Origin: Rhodospirillaceae bacterium
Lineage (GTDB): Bacteria > Pseudomonadota > Alphaproteobacteria > Rhodospirillales > Casp-alpha2
Direction: 5' to 3'
NCBI GenBank assembly: GCA_002696205.1
Contig: NZRL01000132.1
Coordinates: 28,863-92,862, forward strand
Length of the DNA: 64,000 nucleotides
The notes below the pieces were generated by a model. That model made no database searches. It was not told where the DNA came from and saw only the letters and a program-made list of their open reading frames with translations. Below, piece after piece: positions 44,548 to 56,721 of this stretch. Each line of letters begins with the position of its first letter. Within the stretch, counting starts at the first letter, position 1. Both the position numbers and the translations under genes were made by a program.

Positions 44548-45327
44548 TCAGGAGTCCGCGAGGTCTTCCAAAGCGTCGGATTGGCGGATGACGATCATGC
44601 GACCGCGGATCAGAATGATCTCGTCTTTCTGCCAACGGTCCAGGGTCGTCGTGACCCATTGCCGGGTCGATCCGACGATGTCCGCCAACTGGTCATGGGT
44701 GACCCGCCGGTCGATCAAAACGCCGTCGTCGTCGGGGGCGCCATGGACCTCGCCCATGATCTTGAGCAACTGCGCCAGGCGCTGGCTGACCGAACGGGTG
44801 CCCAGCATCTGAACCAGTTGGGAATAGCATTTGCCCTTGGCGACCAGGCCGTCGATCAGGCACAGCGCGAAGATCGGCATGCGTTCGATCAGGTCGCGGA
44901 CGACCGTGCCCGACAGCGCCATGACCCGGGAATCCTCCATCGCCTCGCCGGACCACAGGTGGGTCCCACCGAAGACCTCGGGCCCGCCGATGAAATGGCC
45001 GGGCGTCCAATAGGCCAGGGTCAATTCACGGCCCGACGGCCCGGTGCAGAAGGTTCGCACGCGTCCGCTTTCGATCAGGAAGATGCCTTCGTGGGGGTCG
45101 CCCTGGTGAAAGATACCTTCGCCGCGCGACGCCTTGATGGTGGACCCGCGTGATCGGATGAAGGTGACCTCTTCCATGCTGAGACGGTCGAGGAAGGTCG
45201 CTCCTTCGTTCAAATCCGCCATGCTTTCCGACAGGAACAGCGCGGAAAGAGGTTCGTCCGTCGTCATATCCGCGTTTCCTGCCGTCCTGTCCGCGACCAG
45301 CCGCAAATTGGCCCGCAAATCCTTCAT
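44548..45327 (-). CDS. Crp/Fnr family transcriptional regulator
   Basis: cNMP-binding-like domain and HTH VTHDQLADIVGSTRQWVTTTLDRWQKDEII; start may be internal near 45267. Confidence 0.9.
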   Translation of the reverse strand: MKDLRANLRLVADRTAGNADMTTDEPLSALFLSESMADLNEGATFLDRLSMEEVTFIRSRGSTIKASRGEGIFHQGDPHEGIFLIESGRVRTFCTGPSGRELTLAYWTPGHFIGGPEVFGGTHLWSGEAMEDSRVMALSGTVVRDLIERMPIFALCLIDGLVAKGKCYSQLVQMLGTRSVSQRLAQLLKIMGEVHGAPDDDGVLIDRRVTHDQLADIVGSTRQWVTTTLDRWQKDEIILIRGRMIVIRQSDALEDLADS

Positions 45328-45336
45328 GGGCCGATC

Positions 45337-46038
45337 CTATTTCCGTTCCTGGGCGGCGATATAGCCGCCGACGGCCCGGATATCCGCGTCCGTCAACTTC
45401 GCCGCGACGGCGGACATGGCGCCCTTCGGATCGTTGGCCCGCGCCCCCGACCGGAAGTCCGTCACCTGCTTTATAACATAGTCCGCGTGCTGTGCCTCCA
45501 ACCGGGCCGCCCCGGACGACGCGACCTTGTCCCTGCCGTGACAGGAAATACAGGCGGGCAGGTCCCGTGCCGGATCGCCCTTCAGGAACAGGGCCGCGCC
45601 CAATTCGGCCTCGGCGGGCGGCGGCATGTCGGCGGGCGGCGGCGGCGGCAGGCCGCCGAAATACTTGGCCACGATGGGAATGTCTTTCTCGGCGATCAGC
45701 CCGGCCATGGCCTGCATCTGTTCGCCGTCGTTGGTCCGGCGGCCGTCGCGGAAGTCATGAATCTGTTTTTCGATATAGGCCGGCACCTGGGCGGCCAGCT
45801 TGGGAAACTTGGCCATGCGCGAGACGCCGTCCAGCGAGTGACACAGCGCGCAATTCTCCCAGGGCTGCAGACCGCTTTCGTCGATCATTCCGGCGCGTGC
45901 GGGCATCGCCGCGACCAGGATCGCCAAGGCGACCAGGGCCGCCCAAGCGGCCCAGGCGATCCAGGTCGCTTGCGGCAGGACGATGTGTCGGGGGGATTGC
46001 TCGGTCAAGGCGGTGCGGTCACATGCCTTTGTGGCCAT
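45337..46038 (-). CDS. Dihaem cytochrome c (c4/c553-like)
   Basis: Two CxxCH motifs, CALCH and CISCH; N-terminal TM/signal. Confidence 0.9.
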   Translation of the reverse strand: MATKACDRTALTEQSPRHIVLPQATWIAWAAWAALVALAILVAAMPARAGMIDESGLQPWENCALCHSLDGVSRMAKFPKLAAQVPAYIEKQIHDFRDGRRTNDGEQMQAMAGLIAEKDIPIVAKYFGGLPPPPPADMPPPAEAELGAALFLKGDPARDLPACISCHGRDKVASSGAARLEAQHADYVIKQVTDFRSGARANDPKGAMSAVAAKLTDADIRAVGGYIAAQERK

Positions 46039-46621
46039 GACCCATGGCGCCGTGGTCCATGGGGGCCGGGGCGTCCGCGCGCTTCATCACCTTGGCCGCG
46101 ACCTCAAGCGTCGATCCGTCGTCCAGGGTGAAAGCCAGGTCCACGGTACCGCCTTCGGCCTGCGGGCCTTTGGGGCCCATCAGCATGATATGCAGGCCGT
46201 GAGGCTCGAACGCCACCTTGCCGCCCGCCGGGATATCGACCTGGGCCAGATGCTGCATCATGGCGACGCCGTTCTTCATGGAACTGAGGTGAAGCATGGC
46301 GTGTTTGTACTGCGGGCTGGAAACGGCCGTGACGGCGCGGGCCTCGGTCCCATGGTTCATCAGGACCAGATAGGCCGCATGGGCCTTCAACCCCGGAGGG
46401 GCGAGCGGCACCCAGGCATCCATCGCCATGACGGCACTTTTGGCTTCGGCGATTTCGGTTTTATACGCGGCATGCGCTTCGCAGGCCTGGGCAGGGGCCA
46501 ACGGCACCGCGGCAAGAACGGCCAGCGCAGCACCGGCAAGACAGCCCAGACGGGAATTGGCCAGACAGGAATTGGCCAGACGGGAATTGGCCAAGCGGGA
46601 ATTGGAAACGGAGCGGGTCAT
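46019..46621 (-). CDS. Periplasmic copper chaperone PCuAC-like protein
   Basis: HAMLHLSSMKNGVAMMQHLAQVDIPAGGKVAFEPHGLHIMLMG, H(M)X10MX21HXM-type pattern. Confidence 0.9.
   Translation of the reverse strand: MTRSVSNSRLANSRLANSCLANSRLGCLAGAALAVLAAVPLAPAQACEAHAAYKTEIAEAKSAVMAMDAWVPLAPPGLKAHAAYLVLMNHGTEARAVTAVSSPQYKHAMLHLSSMKNGVAMMQHLAQVDIPAGGKVAFEPHGLHIMLMGPKGPQAEGGTVDLAFTLDDGSTLEVAAKVMKRADAPAPMDHGAMGHGHKGM
46546..46605. repeat. Four tandem 15-bp repeats within the PCuAC N-terminus
   Basis: ccagacgggaattgg / ccagacaggaattgg / ccagacgggaattgg / ccaagcgggaattgg. Confidence 0.93.
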
Positions 46622-47251
46622 TCAGTTGGTCCTTTGTTCCCGGGCGAAGAGGATGCGTTTTTGCGCGATGTATTCGGCGACCTCGCCCGCCGGCAGCGGC
46701 GGCGACAGTTTGGCGTGAATACGGGCGTCCGGGCCGACGACGATCACGCTGGCGCTATGCTGGACCTCGTACTCGCCGTCCTTGTCGGGCTTGCCCAGGC
46801 GGTAGAACCCGTCAATCCCTTCGACGAATTTCTTGAGTTCCTCATGACTGCCGGTGACGCCCAGGTAATCGTCGTTGAAATGGCGGACGTATTCGCCCAA
46901 CACCGGCGCGTCCCGTTTCGGATCGACGGCGACGAAAATCACCTGGGGCAGGTTGTCGGGACGGACGCGCACCGACAACTGGGTAACGACCGCGTCCAGG
47001 TTCGACAGCACGAAAGGACAGACGTCCGGGCAGGACGTGAAGCCGATGGACAGAAGCGTCCATTTGCCCTTGAACCGCTCCGCCGTGAACGGCTTGCCCC
47101 GGTGATCCTTCAAGGCGAATTCCGGCAGGGCCGCGGGCGGGTCCGGTTCGACCACGCGAAGGGCGCCCGCCTGCGCCCCCGCAGCCCCCCAACTCATGCC
47201 GAAGCCGACGGCGGCGATCAGGACGAAAATGAAGGAAAGCGGGCGGATCAT
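46622..47251 (-). CDS. SCO1/SenC family protein
   Basis: LLSIGFTSCPDVCPFVL, CxxxC; start trimmed to MIRPLSFIF. Confidence 0.9.
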   Translation of the reverse strand: MIRPLSFIFVLIAAVGFGMSWGAAGAQAGALRVVEPDPPAALPEFALKDHRGKPFTAERFKGKWTLLSIGFTSCPDVCPFVLSNLDAVVTQLSVRVRPDNLPQVIFVAVDPKRDAPVLGEYVRHFNDDYLGVTGSHEELKKFVEGIDGFYRLGKPDKDGEYEVQHSASVIVVGPDARIHAKLSPPLPAGEVAEYIAQKRILFAREQRTN

Positions 47252-47297: not shown

Positions 47298-48166
<869 letters not shown>

Positions 48167-48170
<4 letters not shown>

Positions 48171-48901
48171 CGGGAGGCTCCCATGGCTGTATTCGGAATG
48201 TGGTGATCATCGTGGCCACCGGCGGTGGCCGCCGGTGTGCCGTCCGGGCCCTTCGGTTCGCCGGACAAGACATAGAGCGAGGCCAGCAACAGGCCGAAGC
48301 CGGCGTATTCGATCCACCAGCCGAACTGTTCCAGCCACAGCGAAGTGGAAACGCCGAGACCCAGAATCGCCAGGCCGACGACCCAACTGGGCGTGGCGCA
48401 GCAGACGACCCAGGCCAGGGTCACGTTGGTCATGCCGACCAGGGCGGCCCCCAGGCCGCCGGCGGCAGCCCCGCCGTTCAGGCGCGATGTGGAACAGGCC
48501 GCGCGGCGGGCGAGCATCAGGTTGACGACCGTCGCCGTGAGGGCGCCCAGGATCAGGATCAGGCCGAACTTGGTCGGGTTGATGTAGAGGCTCCATTCGG
48601 AAATCCCGGCGCCGTAGTCGTAATTCATGCGCCCGACCTCGAACAGCCACTCCTGGCCGATGATCGGCCAGATGTCGGACCAGTCGGGGGTCGACCGGAT
48701 GATCTCCGCGACATTGCCGAACCAATCGAAGGTTTCCGTGTAATTGGGCAGCGCCTGAAACCGGATCAGCAGGGCCGCGAACATGCCCAGGTAATAGACC
48801 ACGGGAAAGCCCAGGGTCACCGCCAGCCATAGGCGGGGCCGTGCGGCGACGGCCTCGCGGATGCGATGCAGGCGGGGAGACTGCAGGACAGCGGCGGTCA
48901 T
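48167..48901 (-). CDS. Uncharacterised multi-TM membrane protein, coupled in the ABC operon
   Basis: 244 aa hydrophobic, no permease EAA-like motif seen; 4-bp overlaps with genes on both sides. Confidence 0.8.
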
Positions 48902-49848
48902 CGCGATCTCCTCTGCCAGCTCAGCAGCGGCCGGGTGGCCAGGCGCACCGCATAGGTCGAAAGCGTGCCCAGGCCGCCGATCATCAGCATCCCGACGACA
49001 ATGTCCGGATAGTTGATCAACGAATAGGCGTTCCAGGTGAAGTAGCCGATGCCGTACTGGCCCGAGATGATTTCACCGGCCAGCAGCGAGAACCAGGAAA
49101 CCCCCATGCCAATTGCGAGGCCCGCCGTGATCGACGGCAGGGCCGCCGGAATGACGACGTGCCAGAAGATTTCCCGCCGGTTGGCGCCCAGGGATTTCGC
49201 CGCGCGGATCAGGACGTCCGGCGTCAACTCCGCCCCATGGGCGGTGTTCAGAATGATCGGGAACAGGGCGCCCAGGAACGTGATGTAGATGATCGAACTT
49301 TCCTCGGTCGGCCACATCAGGATGGCCAGCGGGATCCAGGCGACGGCCGGGATCGGGCGAAGAATTTCGATATAGGGCGAGATCACGTCACGGGCCAGGC
49401 GCGAGCGGCCGATCACCAGGCCGAGCAGAATACCCAGGCCGACGGCGCTCATGTAGCCGATGAAGATGCGCTGCATCGACACCGCGATGTGAATGTAAAA
49501 CTCGGTCGATTGGACGTGGGCGACGAAGGCCGTCCAGACTTTCACGGGCGAGGGGATGTTCTCGAAATTGATGAAGTAGTTGAAGTTGATCGCGGTCGCC
49601 CATTGCCAGATCAGGACACCGACGGCCAAGGCCGTCAGGCGGATCGACCAGGATTTGGCAAAGGCTTTGACCGCCTTCGGCTTCATCGCGGCGCCCAGCA
49701 GCACGGCGATCGCTTCGCGCGGGGTGACGGCTTTTTCCGCCTCGGTTTCCGGGGTGTTGACGGTTTCGGGCATGGCCTCGGCAGCACCTTCGGGCGCGGC
49801 CTGGGCGGCACCGGCGGCCGCCTGCGTGTCGGGGGGGGAAGCATTCAT
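48898..49848 (-). CDS. ABC transporter permease, NrtB/SsuC-like
   Basis: EILRPIPAVAWIPLAILMWPTEESSIIYITFLGALFPIILNTAHG. Confidence 0.92.
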   Translation of the reverse strand: MNASPPDTQAAAGAAQAAPEGAAEAMPETVNTPETEAEKAVTPREAIAVLLGAAMKPKAVKAFAKSWSIRLTALAVGVLIWQWATAINFNYFINFENIPSPVKVWTAFVAHVQSTEFYIHIAVSMQRIFIGYMSAVGLGILLGLVIGRSRLARDVISPYIEILRPIPAVAWIPLAILMWPTEESSIIYITFLGALFPIILNTAHGAELTPDVLIRAAKSLGANRREIFWHVVIPAALPSITAGLAIGMGVSWFSLLAGEIISGQYGIGYFTWNAYSLINYPDIVVGMLMIGGLGTLSTYAVRLATRPLLSWQRRSR

Positions 49849-50113: not shown

Positions 50114-51478
50114 TTAGCTCGACTTCATCGCGATGGCTTCGTCGAAGTCGATGACCTTGCCACCCGACGAGGCCGCGAACTTTTCGGCTTCGCCGCGGCG
50201 CAGGAAGGTCGAGAACTCACCCTTCGGCGTGACGACCCAGAAGGCGGTCTTGCCGAACAGTTTGAGGCCCGTTTCCACGTCGTAGACGTAGGTCGAGTTG
50301 ATCTTGGCGCCCGTCGCCCGGAACTTGGCGACCGCGGTCAGGAATTCGGGAAGGGTTTTGAATTCCTTGATGCCGTCACGCGCGTGCCAGATCTGGTTCG
50401 GCAGGCCCGCATTGGCGACCTTGGGGTCGACGATCGCGGCTTTGTCGGCCTCGTAGTCGACGCCCATGTCCTTGTAGGCGGCCTTGATGTACTTCTCGTC
50501 GATCCAGTCGTCGAAATCCAACGGCGGGATGGCCTTTTCCTTGACCAGAACCGTGTGGTCGAACTTCAACGCTTCCGTCCACTTGGGCTTGATCGTCGGA
50601 TCGAGGGTCAGGTGACCGCCTTCGGAGAAGTAGATGAACAGCACCTCTTTCTCGACGCCGGTCCACTTTTCCATCAGGTCGGTGGCCCGCATGGGGTCTT
50701 CCTTGATCCACTTGCCGGCGGCGTAGACGGCCTTGATGAAGGCCTGAACGACTTCCGGATAATCGTCGGCCAGGTCCTTACGCACGACGACGCCGTGCAG
50801 GTAGGGAACGCCGGCTTCCGAGCCGTCATAGATCTTGCGGCCGGTGCCGCGGAATTCCATGATTTCGGACCAGGGGCAGAAATCGGAGTGGGCATCGATC
50901 TTGCCGGCGGCGATGTTCGCCGCACCCACGGCCGGGCTCTGGTTCTTCAACTGGAACTTGATGTTGTTGTCCTGCGCGGCCTTGAGCAGCATGCCCCAGG
51001 CGGCGGAGCCGACGGGGGTGGACACGGCTTTGCCTTCAAGATCGCCGATCTTATAGAGATCGGATTTCACGGGAACGACGATGGCGTTGCCCGAGCCCTT
51101 GAGGTTGTAGCCGGTGCCCGCGACGTAATAGGTCCGCAGGCTGTCGGTGGCCTGGAACTTGGCGCCGTTGACGATCAGCGGATAATCGCCCATCACGCCG
51201 ATGTTCAGCTTATTGGCCATCATCTGGTTGGTGATCGGGCCGCCCGAGGAATAGTCGGCCCAGCTGATGTCGTAATCGACATCCTTGTACTTACCGTCTT
51301 TCGGCAGGTACTTCTCAAGCAGCTTAAGCTCCTTGATGACGATCCCCGCCGTATACGTATCCGTGCACATGCTTTGGTGGCCAATCGCGACCTTGATGGT
51401 CTTGGCCTGAGCCGGCGCCATTGCCGTGAGCGCCAGAACGGCCCCCAACGCGAGTCCCTGAGTAATGTGCCTGAGCAT
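50114..51478 (-). CDS. ABC transporter substrate-binding protein, NrtA/SsuA-like with NosL-like C-terminal extension
   Basis: 454 aa; signal peptide, KVAIGHQSMCTDTYTAG; C-terminal STYVYDVETGLKLFGKTAFWVVTPKGEFSTFLRRGEAEKFAASSGGKVIDFDEA. Confidence 0.85.
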   Translation of the reverse strand: MLRHITQGLALGAVLALTAMAPAQAKTIKVAIGHQSMCTDTYTAGIVIKELKLLEKYLPKDGKYKDVDYDISWADYSSGGPITNQMMANKLNIGVMGDYPLIVNGAKFQATDSLRTYYVAGTGYNLKGSGNAIVVPVKSDLYKIGDLEGKAVSTPVGSAAWGMLLKAAQDNNIKFQLKNQSPAVGAANIAAGKIDAHSDFCPWSEIMEFRGTGRKIYDGSEAGVPYLHGVVVRKDLADDYPEVVQAFIKAVYAAGKWIKEDPMRATDLMEKWTGVEKEVLFIYFSEGGHLTLDPTIKPKWTEALKFDHTVLVKEKAIPPLDFDDWIDEKYIKAAYKDMGVDYEADKAAIVDPKVANAGLPNQIWHARDGIKEFKTLPEFLTAVAKFRATGAKINSTYVYDVETGLKLFGKTAFWVVTPKGEFSTFLRRGEAEKFAASSGGKVIDFDEAIAMKSS

Positions 51479-51805: not shown

Positions 51806-52381
51806 TCATCGGCCACCCTCTTTCGTCGTGCCGTCTAGGAGATTTTCAAACCAGGAAACAGTCGCATCATCGGCCCATTCCCGCGCACCGAGCGCGGCAT
51901 GGGTGATCTCGCCCGTCGGGCCGACCAGAAACGTCGCGGGCAGGGCGCCGACATGCCAGTCGCGCCCGGCCACGCCGTCGGCGTCGAGCAAAATGCCCAA
52001 ATCGCCGACATCGACTTGTTTCAAAAACCGGTCGATCCCGGACCTTTTGTCACCCAGGTTCACGGCGACCACGCGCAGCCCCTTGGGCGCCAGTCGCGCC
52101 TGCAATTTACCAAGCGCCGGCATCTCGATCCGGCAAGGCGCGCACCACAATGCCCAGAAATTCACCAAGGTGAACTGCCCCTTCCGGTCACGCAGCGAAA
52201 AGGCTCCCTCATCGAGGTCTGGCAGATTCAGATCCGGCGCCGGAATCGCTTGCGGCGCCGGAGCCATTGGCTCGGGCCCGGCGGCAGCACCGTCGGAGCC
52301 GCCGGCACCGATCAGAAGTGCAGCGGATAAAACGGAATTTCGAAGAAAGACAAGTACTCGGCGGCGGGGCGGGCGGCGCAT
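51806..52381 (-). CDS. TlpA-like thioredoxin family protein
   Basis: FTLVNFWALWCAPCRIEMPALGKLQ; start trimmed to MRRPPRRRVLVFLRN. Confidence 0.9.
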   Translation of the reverse strand: MRRPPRRRVLVFLRNSVLSAALLIGAGGSDGAAAGPEPMAPAPQAIPAPDLNLPDLDEGAFSLRDRKGQFTLVNFWALWCAPCRIEMPALGKLQARLAPKGLRVVAVNLGDKRSGIDRFLKQVDVGDLGILLDADGVAGRDWHVGALPATFLVGPTGEITHAALGAREWADDATVSWFENLLDGTTKEGGR

Positions 52382-52391
52382 CGCCGGCGCC

Positions 52392-53144
52392 CTACCAACG
52401 GCCGATGCGGGTGCGGTAACGGAACGCCTCGGCGACCGCGTGACGAATGCAGAAATCGATGGCGACGCCGTTAACATCGAAGTTCACCTGTTCGGTGCGG
52501 ACGACGGTGTCGCCGGGTTCGATATCGAGCATCGCCGCCATCCGGGGGGCCGCCTTGACCATATCCATGATCACGTCACCGAACGCGATCGGCACGCCGC
52601 GCGACCGTTCCAGCAAAGTGCAAACATCACTGGATTCCAGATCGCCCTCGGTCAACGGTTCGGCCACTTCGTTCAACAAAAACCGCTCTTCGTGGCAGAC
52701 CGGCGCGCCGTTTGCGAGACGCAGGCGGCGCACCGCGGTCACCGCCGTTCCCGCCGGAATGCCGAGCGCCTGGCGAACTTGGGCATTTGCTTTGACCTCG
52801 GTCCGTTCGAGAAGGCGTGCCGTCGCGGCGACACCGTTGGGGCCGAGCGCTTCGCCCAATCCCTGCAGCCGGCGCATGTCCAACTCCGCCTTGACCCCGC
52901 GGACGAAATGGCCCTGGCCTTGATGGCTTTCGACCATGCCCGATTTCTTGAGAGCATCAAGCGCGTGACGAACCGTGACCCGAGAGACCCCGAACTTGCG
53001 AACCAGGGAATGTTCCGACGGCAGGCGGGAGCCCGGCTGAATCTCCCCGGCGTTGATCCGCCGCGCGAGCCAATCGCGAACCACGACGTATTTCGGAAGG
53101 GTCTCTCTTTCCTGGGTCACGATATTCTGGATCACGTGGTTCAT
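52392..53144 (-). CDS. GntR family regulator, UTRA (HutC) subfamily
   Basis: LARRINAGEIQPGSRLPSEHSLVRKFGVSRVTVRHALDALKKSGMV plus UTRA-like C-terminus. Confidence 0.92.
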   Translation of the reverse strand: MNHVIQNIVTQERETLPKYVVVRDWLARRINAGEIQPGSRLPSEHSLVRKFGVSRVTVRHALDALKKSGMVESHQGQGHFVRGVKAELDMRRLQGLGEALGPNGVAATARLLERTEVKANAQVRQALGIPAGTAVTAVRRLRLANGAPVCHEERFLLNEVAEPLTEGDLESSDVCTLLERSRGVPIAFGDVIMDMVKAAPRMAAMLDIEPGDTVVRTEQVNFDVNGVAIDFCIRHAVAEAFRYRTRIGRW

Positions 53145-53195: not shown

Positions 53196-54158
53196 TTATT
53201 CGCTGCGGATCCGGCCGAGCGCCCAGCGGATGTTCTTGCGGACGTCGGGATCGGGATCGTCGAGATGGGCTTCCAGCGCCGGAACGGCTTCGGGGGCTTC
53301 GATCTCGCCGAGAGCCGCCGCCGCTTCCTTGCGCAGGTTGGAAATATCGTGGTCGAGCGACGGGATGATTTCGGGCACCGCCTCGGCCACGCCCAGCTTG
53401 CCGAGCGAGCGGATCGACTTCTGCCGGACCTGCCAGTATTCGTCGGTCAAGGCTGCGCGAAGGGCCGGGGCCGCGACCGTCGACTGCACCTTGCACAGCG
53501 TTTCGGCGGCGATTTCGCGCACCTGCCAGTCGCTATCGGTCAGCGACTGGGCCAGCGCCTCGGCGGCGGCGGTCGTCACGGAAAAACCGAGCGCGCCGGC
53601 GGCGGTCCGCCGCACGGCGGGCTCCACATCCTTCAACATGGACATCAGGGCCGGCAGGGCGTCTTCGGTTTTCAGATAGCCGACGACGCTGATCGCTTCG
53701 GAACGGACCGTCGCGTCTTCGTCGGAAAAGGCATCCAACGCCGGCTTCAGGCTTTCCGTCCGCTTCAGTTCGCGAAGGGCCCGCAGCGAGGCGGCGCGAA
53801 CGAACGCACTTTCGTGGGTCACGAAGGGCAGGATCGGATCGGCGGCGGCCGGGTCTTTCAATTCGGCCATGGAATCGGCGGCCGCCTGGGCGACGCCCGC
53901 GTCCTCGTCGACCACGGCAACGACCAAGGCGTCGGCCGTTTCCGGGCCGTCGAATTCGGCCAACGCCAAAGCGACCTGAAGCCGCACTTCGCGGGCTTCG
54001 TCACCAAGCGCCTTTTTCAGATAGGTCACGGCCGAAGGATCGGCGCTGTCGGCCAGATCCATGACGGCGACCCGGCGGGTCCCGGGATCGGGATCGTCCA
54101 AACGGTCGACGATATCCTCGACTTCGTCGAACTGCTCGAAGGGCTCGAATGCGGACAT
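53196..54158 (-). CDS. HEAT-repeat protein
   Basis: Repeated helices, e.g. DSDWQVREIAAETLCKVQSTVAAPALRAALTDEYWQVRQKSIRSLGKLG. Confidence 0.9.
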   Translation of the reverse strand: MSAFEPFEQFDEVEDIVDRLDDPDPGTRRVAVMDLADSADPSAVTYLKKALGDEAREVRLQVALALAEFDGPETADALVVAVVDEDAGVAQAAADSMAELKDPAAADPILPFVTHESAFVRAASLRALRELKRTESLKPALDAFSDEDATVRSEAISVVGYLKTEDALPALMSMLKDVEPAVRRTAAGALGFSVTTAAAEALAQSLTDSDWQVREIAAETLCKVQSTVAAPALRAALTDEYWQVRQKSIRSLGKLGVAEAVPEIIPSLDHDISNLRKEAAAALGEIEAPEAVPALEAHLDDPDPDVRKNIRWALGRIRSE

Positions 54159-54178
54159 GGTCTCGGGCTCCTTATCGA

Positions 54179-54412
54179 CTAGCGCAGCAGGAAGGGAATG
54201 TGCACGGACACGGCACCCGTCGGGCAATCGGCCTCGCAGGGCATGCAGTACCAGCATTCGTCGTACTTCATGAACGCCTTGCCGGTCTGATCCGAGATGC
54301 GCAGCACGTCCAGCGGGCAGACATCGACGCAGACGGTGCAGCCCTTGTCGGCGATGCACTTGTCGTCATCGACGACGACCGGGACGGAAGAGGATTGTTG
54401 TGCGAGAGGCAT
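54179..54412 (-). CDS. 2[4Fe-4S] ferredoxin, AprB N-terminal-like
   Basis: 77 aa; CIADKGCTVCVDVCP and CWYCMPCEADCP. Confidence 0.9.
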   Translation of the reverse strand: MPLAQQSSSVPVVVDDDKCIADKGCTVCVDVCPLDVLRISDQTGKAFMKYDECWYCMPCEADCPTGAVSVHIPFLLR

Positions 54413-54451
54413 GGGAATTCTCCTGGTGTTGTCTGTCTACGACGGGGCGGA

Positions 54452-56191
54452 TCAGGCCTGGGCCTTGATGCGCTGTTTGTCGTAGGCGTCCTTTTCGTCT
54501 TCATCGATGGGGATGACGTAGGGGTCGACTTCCTTCTTGCGGATCGTCATCTGACCGGCGTCGTCCTTGGACAGGATCGAGTGGCAGAACCAGTTCTCGT
54601 TGTCCCGTTCCGGATAATCGGCGCGGTTGTGATAAAGACCCCAGCGGCTTTCCGTGCGGAACAGCGAGGCGAAGGCCGCCATGTCGGCGCAGTCCATGAT
54701 CGACGCAACCTCGAGAGAGCGCATCAATTCGTGGGCGTTGGTCACGGCCATTTCGTTTTCCATGGCCTCGCGCGTTTCGGCGAACCGGTCCTGGGCCAGC
54801 TGCATCTTGCGGGTGACCTTGGGCGGCTGCAGGTAGTCGTTGACCAGGCGCCGGGTCTTGTACTCGATCTGGTTCGGCGGAATGCCGTCGTCGCGCAGGG
54901 TCGGCGCCAGGACGCGCTTCTTCTCGGCGGCGATGAAATCCTCGTCGATGTCGGCGAAATCGACCTCGTTCACGAAGTCGACGGCGTGTTCACCGGCGAC
55001 CGCACCGTTGGTGAAGGCCCCCAGCATGTAGTTATGCGGCACGCTGGCCATGTCGCCGGCGGCATAAAGGCCCGGAACCGTGGTGCAGGCGTTGTCGTCG
55101 ACATAGACGCCGGACGCCGAATGGCCCGAGCAGAAGCCGATTTCCGAGATATGCATCTCGATCATGCCGTGGCGGTAATCGTTGTGGCGGTTGACCTGGA
55201 ACCGGCCGCGGGTCGGGCGTTCGACCTCGTGCAGGATGGTCTCGATTTCCGAGATCGTCTCGTCGGCCAGGTGGTTGAGCTTCAGGAACACCGGCCCCTT
55301 GCCCGACTGCAGTTCGTTGTAGAACTCCTGCATCATCTGGCCGGACCAGTAATCGCATTCGATGAATCGCATGCCTTCGTTGTTGGCCGTGTAGCCGCCG
55401 AAGGGCCCGGCCACATAGGCGCAGGCGGGACCGTTGTAGTCCTTGATCAGCGGATTGATCTGGAAGCATTCCAGGTTCGCCAGCCCCGCGCCGGCGTGAT
55501 ACGCCATGGCGTAGCCGTCGCCCGAGTTGGCGGCGTTCTCATAGGTGCCGTAGAGATAGCCCGAGGTCGGCAGACCCAAACGCCCGGCGGCCCCCATGCA
55601 GAGGATCACGGCCTTGGCGCGGACGACCAGGAATTCGGCGTTGCGCGTGTTGACGGCGATGGCGCCGGCGATGCGGCCGTCCTTGCCGGTCAGCAGGCGG
55701 GTCGCCATGTAGCGGTTGGAGATCAGCAGACGCGCCCGCTTGAGCTGGCGATACAGCGCCTTCTTCACGGTGTCGCCGTTCGGCATGGGCAGGACGTAGG
55801 TGCCGATGTGGTGCACCTTCTTGACGTCGAAGTCGCCGTTTTCGTCCTTCTGGAAACGGATGCCGAAGTTATCCAGCTCCTGAATGATTTCGTAGCAGTT
55901 CTCGGCGTATTTCAGGACCGCCGCCTGATCGACGATGCCGTCGTTGGCGACGGTGATTTCCTTCACATACTGCTCGGGCGTCGAATGGCCGGGGATGACG
56001 GCGTTGTTCAGGCCGTCCATGCCCATGGAGATGGCGCCGGAGCGCTTCACATTGGCCTTTTCCAAGAGGATGACCTTGGCGTCGGGATTTTTCTTCTTGG
56101 CCTTGTAGGCGGCCATCGGGCCGGCCGTGCCGCCGCCGATGACGAGGATGTCGCAATCGACTTGCGAGGTGCCTTCGGTGATTTCGTCCAT
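54452..56191 (-). CDS. FAD-dependent oxidoreductase, AprA/fumarate reductase flavoprotein-like
   Basis: 579 aa; DILVIGGGTAGPMAAYKAKKK, EKANVKRSGAISMGMDGLNN, GLYAAGDMASVPHNYMLGAFTNGAVAGE. Confidence 0.9.
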   Translation of the reverse strand: MDEITEGTSQVDCDILVIGGGTAGPMAAYKAKKKNPDAKVILLEKANVKRSGAISMGMDGLNNAVIPGHSTPEQYVKEITVANDGIVDQAAVLKYAENCYEIIQELDNFGIRFQKDENGDFDVKKVHHIGTYVLPMPNGDTVKKALYRQLKRARLLISNRYMATRLLTGKDGRIAGAIAVNTRNAEFLVVRAKAVILCMGAAGRLGLPTSGYLYGTYENAANSGDGYAMAYHAGAGLANLECFQINPLIKDYNGPACAYVAGPFGGYTANNEGMRFIECDYWSGQMMQEFYNELQSGKGPVFLKLNHLADETISEIETILHEVERPTRGRFQVNRHNDYRHGMIEMHISEIGFCSGHSASGVYVDDNACTTVPGLYAAGDMASVPHNYMLGAFTNGAVAGEHAVDFVNEVDFADIDEDFIAAEKKRVLAPTLRDDGIPPNQIEYKTRRLVNDYLQPPKVTRKMQLAQDRFAETREAMENEMAVTNAHELMRSLEVASIMDCADMAAFASLFRTESRWGLYHNRADYPERDNENWFCHSILSKDDAGQMTIRKKEVDPYVIPIDEDEKDAYDKQRIKAQA

Positions 56192-56330
56192 GGGTCGGTC
56201 CTTTCGGTCTTTGGCGCCTCCCCTGGGTCACATATGCCTTGAAGTATAGTGCGACGCGGGGGGACGTCTGGTCGGTCTTGTCTGCCTTTGGCGCGGCGTC
56301 GCGCCCTCAGGTCTGGAACTTGTTTCTATC

Positions 56331-56353
56331 GTCATGGTGCACCGCACCATGAC
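56331..56353. promoter_or_regulatory. Perfect inverted repeat upstream of the flavoprotein gene
   Basis: GTCATGGTGC-acc-GCACCATGAC, 10-bp arms. Confidence 0.55.
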
Positions 56354-56367
56354 CGGCTGTCTGTCAA

Positions 56368-56721
56368 CTAATTGCCAATGCTGTCGATGGCGCCGTCGAT
56401 TGCATTGACGACGGTCGTATCGATGCCTTTGAAGGCCAGCGCGCCGATGGCGCCGCGCAGCATTTCCCAGGGGTAGATGCCTTTCGCGTAACCGTCCGAG
56501 AAAACGATGTTGATGGCGTAGACGCCGACGGCCTCGACGCCCGTGATGGTCAGATCCTCGTCGGCGGGAACATCCCAGCCTTTCAGGCGCGCACTTTCCG
56601 ATCGGGCGGAGCGGCTCATCTGGCGCAGGGCGGGCGCGCTCAAGCTCTGGCGCAGGCCGTCGGGCCAGGTGATTTCCAGCGACGAACGGTCGGCGGGAAC
56701 GGTGATACCGGTGGGCTGCAT
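56368..56721 (-). CDS. DUF971 family protein
   Basis: SLEITWPDGLRQSLSAPALR ... AVGVYAINIVFSDGYAKGIYPWEML. Confidence 0.85.
   Translation of the reverse strand: MQPTGITVPADRSSLEITWPDGLRQSLSAPALRQMSRSARSESARLKGWDVPADEDLTITGVEAVGVYAINIVFSDGYAKGIYPWEMLRGAIGALAFKGIDTTVVNAIDGAIDSIGN

Follow-up and report, generated by a model that had tools for sequence, protein, structure and literature searches.

The window, by which we mean the whole stretch of 64,000 nucleotides analysed here, carries on its minus strand the gene of a binding protein with an unusual C-terminal tail, set among genes for transport, redox and regulatory proteins. The residues quoted for this protein in a preliminary description of the DNA were found where that description had placed them. 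The features of the locus are the following:

44548..45327, minus strand: Crp/Fnr-family regulator (Pfam cNMP_binding and HTH_Crp_2)
45337..46038, minus strand: di-haem cytochrome c (Pfam Cytochrome_CBB3, two stretches)
46019..46621, minus strand: PCuAC copper chaperone (Pfam, E 7e-31)
46622..47251, minus strand: SCO1/SenC protein, start assigned at MIRPLSF (Pfam, E 6e-32)
47298..48170, minus strand: ABC ATPase of the NrtCD/TauB type (family profile match)
48167..48901, minus strand: small membrane protein with the motifs WVVCC[AS]TPxWVVGL and MNYDxGxGIS (no Pfam or NCBIfam match)
48898..49848, minus strand: ABC permease, start assigned at MNASPPD (Pfam BPD_transp_1, E 9e-24)
50114-51478, minus strand: receptor, open reading frame of 454 amino acids
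50129..50413, minus strand: NosL-like C-terminal domain of the receptor, residues ~356-450, two beta-beta-alpha-beta units (hhalign, AF2, Foldseek)
50459..51403, minus strand: SsuA/TauA/NrtA-type substrate-binding core of the receptor, residues ~26-340 (NCBIfam SsuA_fam and Foldseek)
51404..51478, minus strand: N-terminal signal peptide of the receptor, residues 1-25 (reading of the sequence; low-confidence N-terminal helix in the model)
51806..52477, minus strand: TlpA-like thioredoxin (Pfam AhpC-TSA/Redoxin)
52392..53144, minus strand: GntR-UTRA regulator (profile match)
53196..54161, minus strand: HEAT-repeat protein (Pfam HEAT_2, E 3e-63)
54179..54412, minus strand: 2[4Fe-4S]-type ferredoxin (Pfam Fer4_7)
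54452..56191, minus strand: AprA-like FAD oxidoreductase (PRK08275 / NF006131, 1066 bits against a cut-off of 587)
56434..56721, minus strand: DUF971 / GBBH-like_N protein (PF06155, E 1e-18; placed by tblastn)

The cluster in the window has both regulators, Crp/Fnr and GntR-UTRA, and most of its relatives show just one of them.

By fold and by genes, the receptor is an SsuA/TauA-like binding protein. It has in common with the SsuA/TauA/NrtA-type proteins (NitT/TauT family) the core fold, a signal peptide (by reading) and adjacent permease and ATPase genes, and Pfam assigns it to NMT1-type binding-protein families. The core matches NCBIfam SsuA_fam with E 2.4e-29, under the cut-off of that family, and it also scores under the curated cut-offs for SsuA and TauA; indeed all equivalog cut-offs are missed. 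The receptor further differs from these proteins in an extra C-terminal domain of ~95 residues. In Foldseek, the full receptor model matches SsuA (3uif/3ksj) and TauA (6ssy). Since the matched structures are only 289-330 residues long, the tail sits beyond a complete binding-protein fold, and the preliminary description was right to set it apart from the standard architecture.

The same description had proposed that the tail resembles NosL, and this is borne out by profile, fold and structure comparisons. On the receptor sequence alone the Pfam NosL match is sub-threshold (residues 421-447, E 0.042, 14.6 bits against a gathering score of 24), and 8 of the 33 full-length homologues match the family, the best with E 0.002. 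Such a weak single-sequence score could suit a chance resemblance, in which the tail would merely be the final helices of the binding-protein fold, but this explanation is hardly credible in view of everything else. In single comparisons with hhalign, the tail alignment of the 33 homologues matched an alignment of 29 bona fide NosL proteins from the same taxonomic order with a probability of 96.7% and E 3.6e-10 across 80 columns; when the tail set was enlarged to 59 homologues and the adjoining upstream segment was included, these values were 98.1% and E 1.3e-13, spanning NosL columns 11-130 of 132. The controls stayed low (at most 2.1% probability for column-shuffled NosL, n=100; 0.4% for reversed NosL; 0.6% for the substrate-binding protein core), and a chance NosL match was rejected on this basis. 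AF2 folds the tail alone with confidence (pLDDT 94.5, pTM 0.85) into two successive beta-beta-alpha-beta units, and NosL itself consists of two homologous beta-beta-alpha-beta domains (PMC6530538). Searched against 350,542 solved chains with Foldseek, the tail gave five matches with E<1e-3, all of them NosL (7osf_H, 7osg_H, 7og7, 7osj_H and 7znq_L; TM 0.70-0.75 on the query), and the sixth match had E 0.18. Moreover, the tail is under purifying selection, with a dN/dS of ~0.2 compared to ~0.05 for the core.

The tail is therefore homologous to NosL and comprises nearly the whole NosL fold, appended after the binding core. The preliminary description had confined the likeness to the last ~65 residues; the domain starts ~35 residues earlier, at about residue 356 (base 50413). 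With NosL (PF05573; 7og7, 7osf chain H) it shares the fold, the conserved Tyr-Val-x-Asp strand and the C-terminal segment FxxxxxAxxxAxxxGGxVxxFxxx, and periplasmic location and work beside an ABC transporter are common to both. Unlike NosL, the tailed receptor is not a lipoprotein, and its tail, which is joined to a binding protein, has neither the CxM Met nor the Gly-Met loop, shows no tie to nosZ and fails the Pfam gathering score. The residues conserved across 59 tails are W364, Y397, D400, G404, K406, L407, A412 and F425.

The tailed receptor keeps constant company: a permease, an ATPase, an AprA-like FAD protein (PRK08275), a ferredoxin and a HEAT protein, with DUF971 in most loci. The HEAT and the ferredoxin genes are each present in 49 of 56 loci. 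Among 399 sampled genomes, a strong tail match occurs in 20, the AprA-like protein in 21 and both in 20, so that the AprA-like protein is found in 20/20 genomes with a tail compared to 1/379 of the others (Fisher p 8e-33, kinship among genomes ignored). Two weak tail matches (E ~7e-4) were excluded from this count, as there is no such binding protein at those places. Like AprA of adenylylsulfate reductase, the AprA-like protein is an FAD oxidoreductase whose gene adjoins that of a small 4Fe-4S partner. Nonetheless, the flavoprotein of the window belongs to PRK08275 and, with 157 bits against the aprA equivalog cut-off of 642, it falls far outside dissimilatory AprA. In Pseudomonadota and Cyanobacteriota, the AprA-like, ferredoxin, HEAT and DUF971 genes (53196-56721) accompany the tailed receptor as a conserved set. 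SCO and PCuAC are confined to a marine subset of the clusters, which also brings cytochrome c and the double-Cys membrane protein, and the membrane protein family of 48167-48901 goes with the SCO-bearing versions (28 loci). At a guess, the SCO, PCuAC, TlpA and cytochrome c of this subset may serve a branch of this pathway that deals with electron transfer or with cuproproteins.

Tailed homologues are spread over three phyla: Pseudomonadota (Alpha- and Gammaproteobacteria and others), Cyanobacteriota and Actinomycetota. The carriers include marine bacteria, pseudomonads, rhizobial plasmids, methylotrophs, Acinetobacter, cyanobacteria and Gordonia. A tree built from the cores unites the tailed receptors in a single group (91/74; 94% of bootstrap trees), and the fusion apparently arose once, in their common ancestor. 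The sister of this group is formed by cores of cyanobacterial LysR regulators (99/98 for the two together versus other substrate-binding proteins); owing to some long branches and a root that serves for drawing only, the deep order in the tree is not firm. Large plasmids, some of them predicted to be conjugative, carry the cluster in Methylobacterium, Rhizobium and others (L116:1-21323, L120:1-19326), which points to horizontal spread. A receptor copy on an Acidithiobacillus caldus plasmid (L117:7941-10111) is truncated before the tail and adjoins an ISL3 transposase, with a match to an AprA-like remnant; it is the sole truncated member of the family.

The sister group deserves a closer look. 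The cyanobacterial clusters encode a regulator of 666-678 residues, in which LysR DNA-binding and effector domains are followed by a binding core:

L118:12418-14454 and L123:13555-15555, minus strand: LysR-type regulator with C-terminal binding core (cyanobacterial plasmids)

This core is ~29-36% identical to those of the receptors and stops at the equivalent of receptor residue ~336, where the receptor's tail region begins. Tail-like sequence was not found next to the LysR-core genes, and each plasmid searched has exactly one tail, on the transported receptor. The regulator seems to descend from the receptor and to act as a ligand sensor in the cytoplasm. A comparable re-use is known from the cyanobacterial NrtC/CmpC transporters, in which an NrtA/CmpA-like regulatory domain is fused to the ATPase; structures of this group are also among the Foldseek matches of the full receptor model. 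In both cases a binding core would serve as a cytoplasmic sensor; there it sits on the ATPase, whereas here it sits on a LysR transcription factor and the NosL-like tail remains part of the transported receptor. As the LysR copy consists of the core alone, the tail seems to have its role in transport and not in the binding of the ligand, a comparison that draws on the three related cyanobacterial plasmids that carry this regulator. On the simplest reading, ligand binding falls to the core and the tail has a task required only in the periplasm.

What the tail does can be narrowed down by its loss of metal ligands. In NosL, one more Met besides the CxM motif is absolutely conserved (PMC6530538), and in our NosL set (n=29) two Met columns, M12 and M94, are invariant or nearly so. 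Both of these conserved copper-ligand sites are lost from the tail: the CxM Met is replaced in 59/59 tails, and the tail alignment has a deletion in place of the Gly-Met loop, so that the second conserved Met is missing as well. The earlier remark that the Cys/Met copper ligands of NosL are not evident was correct. It is therefore unlikely that the tail still functions as a copper-binding domain, which would deliver copper together with SCO, PCuAC, TlpA and cytochrome c or import copper with the substrate, even though the NosL fold, the adjoining genes of those four proteins in the window and a conserved Trp-His (IWH) in the marine subset would all fit such a role. The preliminary description had hinted that the SCO and PCuAC neighbours mean a copper-handling fusion. 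This is not supported, since clusters that have none of SCO, PCuAC and cytochrome c (Pseudomonas, Rhizobium, Methylobacterium, Acinetobacter, cyanobacteria and Gordonia) carry the tail too, which hence does not track copper genes. As most distant clusters are without these genes, we rejected copper delivery via SCO/PCuAC as a general role. A link to N2O reductase was likewise rejected: NosZ was not found in 21 of 25 carrier genomes, nor NosL proper in the source genome of the window (84% complete). Furthermore, nosZ was not among the annotated neighbours in the clusters of tailed receptors. The CxM Cys is kept in 12 of the 59 tails, always paired with a second Cys ~28 residues later. As the two occur together and never singly, and as TlpA neighbours are present in part of the tailed-receptor loci, the tail might act as a redox or disulfide switch whose Cys pair senses the periplasmic thiol or oxidant state. 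Yet the remaining 47 tails, the receptor's own included, are without any Cys and a structural disulfide accounts for the pair equally well, making this very improbable.

A doubtful alternative is that the tail serves as a substrate-recognition lid or second ligand site, in which a retained NosL-type cleft would now hold an organic or sulfur ligand. The strongly conserved W364, Y397, D400, G404, K406 and L407 could line a pocket, and the pTM of 0.87 for the full-chain receptor model suggests a fixed orientation of the tail. Against this stand the LysR regulators of the same clusters, whose core has no tail even though the ligand they sense is presumably the same. We prefer to see the tail as a likely interaction module for docking or handover, one of the roles that the preliminary description had suggested; its faster evolution relative to the core is unlike what would be expected of a tight conserved interface and counts against docking. 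The precedent is NosL itself, for which structures include the complex with the ABC transporter NosDFY (7osf and others), and which passes copper on to NosD within the NosFY complex (PMC13068155).

To the fold, homology, single clade, ligand-site loss and gene association computed here we add, by inference, a docking role, a substrate class and a redox step. A plausible reading, though one we would not yet call probable, is that the protein is the receptor of an ABC importer for a small anionic compound, with the tail as a copper-free docking or handover module and the cargo passed on to the AprA-like flavoprotein and its ferredoxin for processing. The periplasmic core would capture the small anion, and the NosL-like domain might then position the receptor, once loaded, against its own permease or a periplasmic partner without copper, by analogy with the docking of NosL to NosDFY. 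After import, the flavoprotein and its ferredoxin could act on the compound in the cytoplasm, aided by the HEAT and DUF971 proteins. Judging solely by the resemblance of the core to SsuA and TauA, which stays under their curated cut-offs, the substrate is probably sulfonate-like.

A fusion of apparently single origin, found in three phyla beside the same redox genes, marks a putative, as yet unnamed uptake-and-reduction system. We found no paper describing this cluster or a NosL-tailed receptor in the open-licence literature, although this does not prove that none exists. Tentatively, the tailed receptor, permease, ATPase, AprA-like protein, ferredoxin, HEAT and DUF971 proteins could constitute a widely spread import-and-reduction system for a sulfur compound, in which a copper-chaperone fold has been turned into a receptor-docking module and the tail-free core into a LysR ligand sensor. 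Here the NosL fold serves apart from N2O reductase as a fixed component of a transporter receptor and no longer has its conserved metal site. Together with its near-perfect partner genes, the tail offers a precise marker for this so far uncharacterised system, and the tail-free LysR copy provides a ready route toward finding its substrate.
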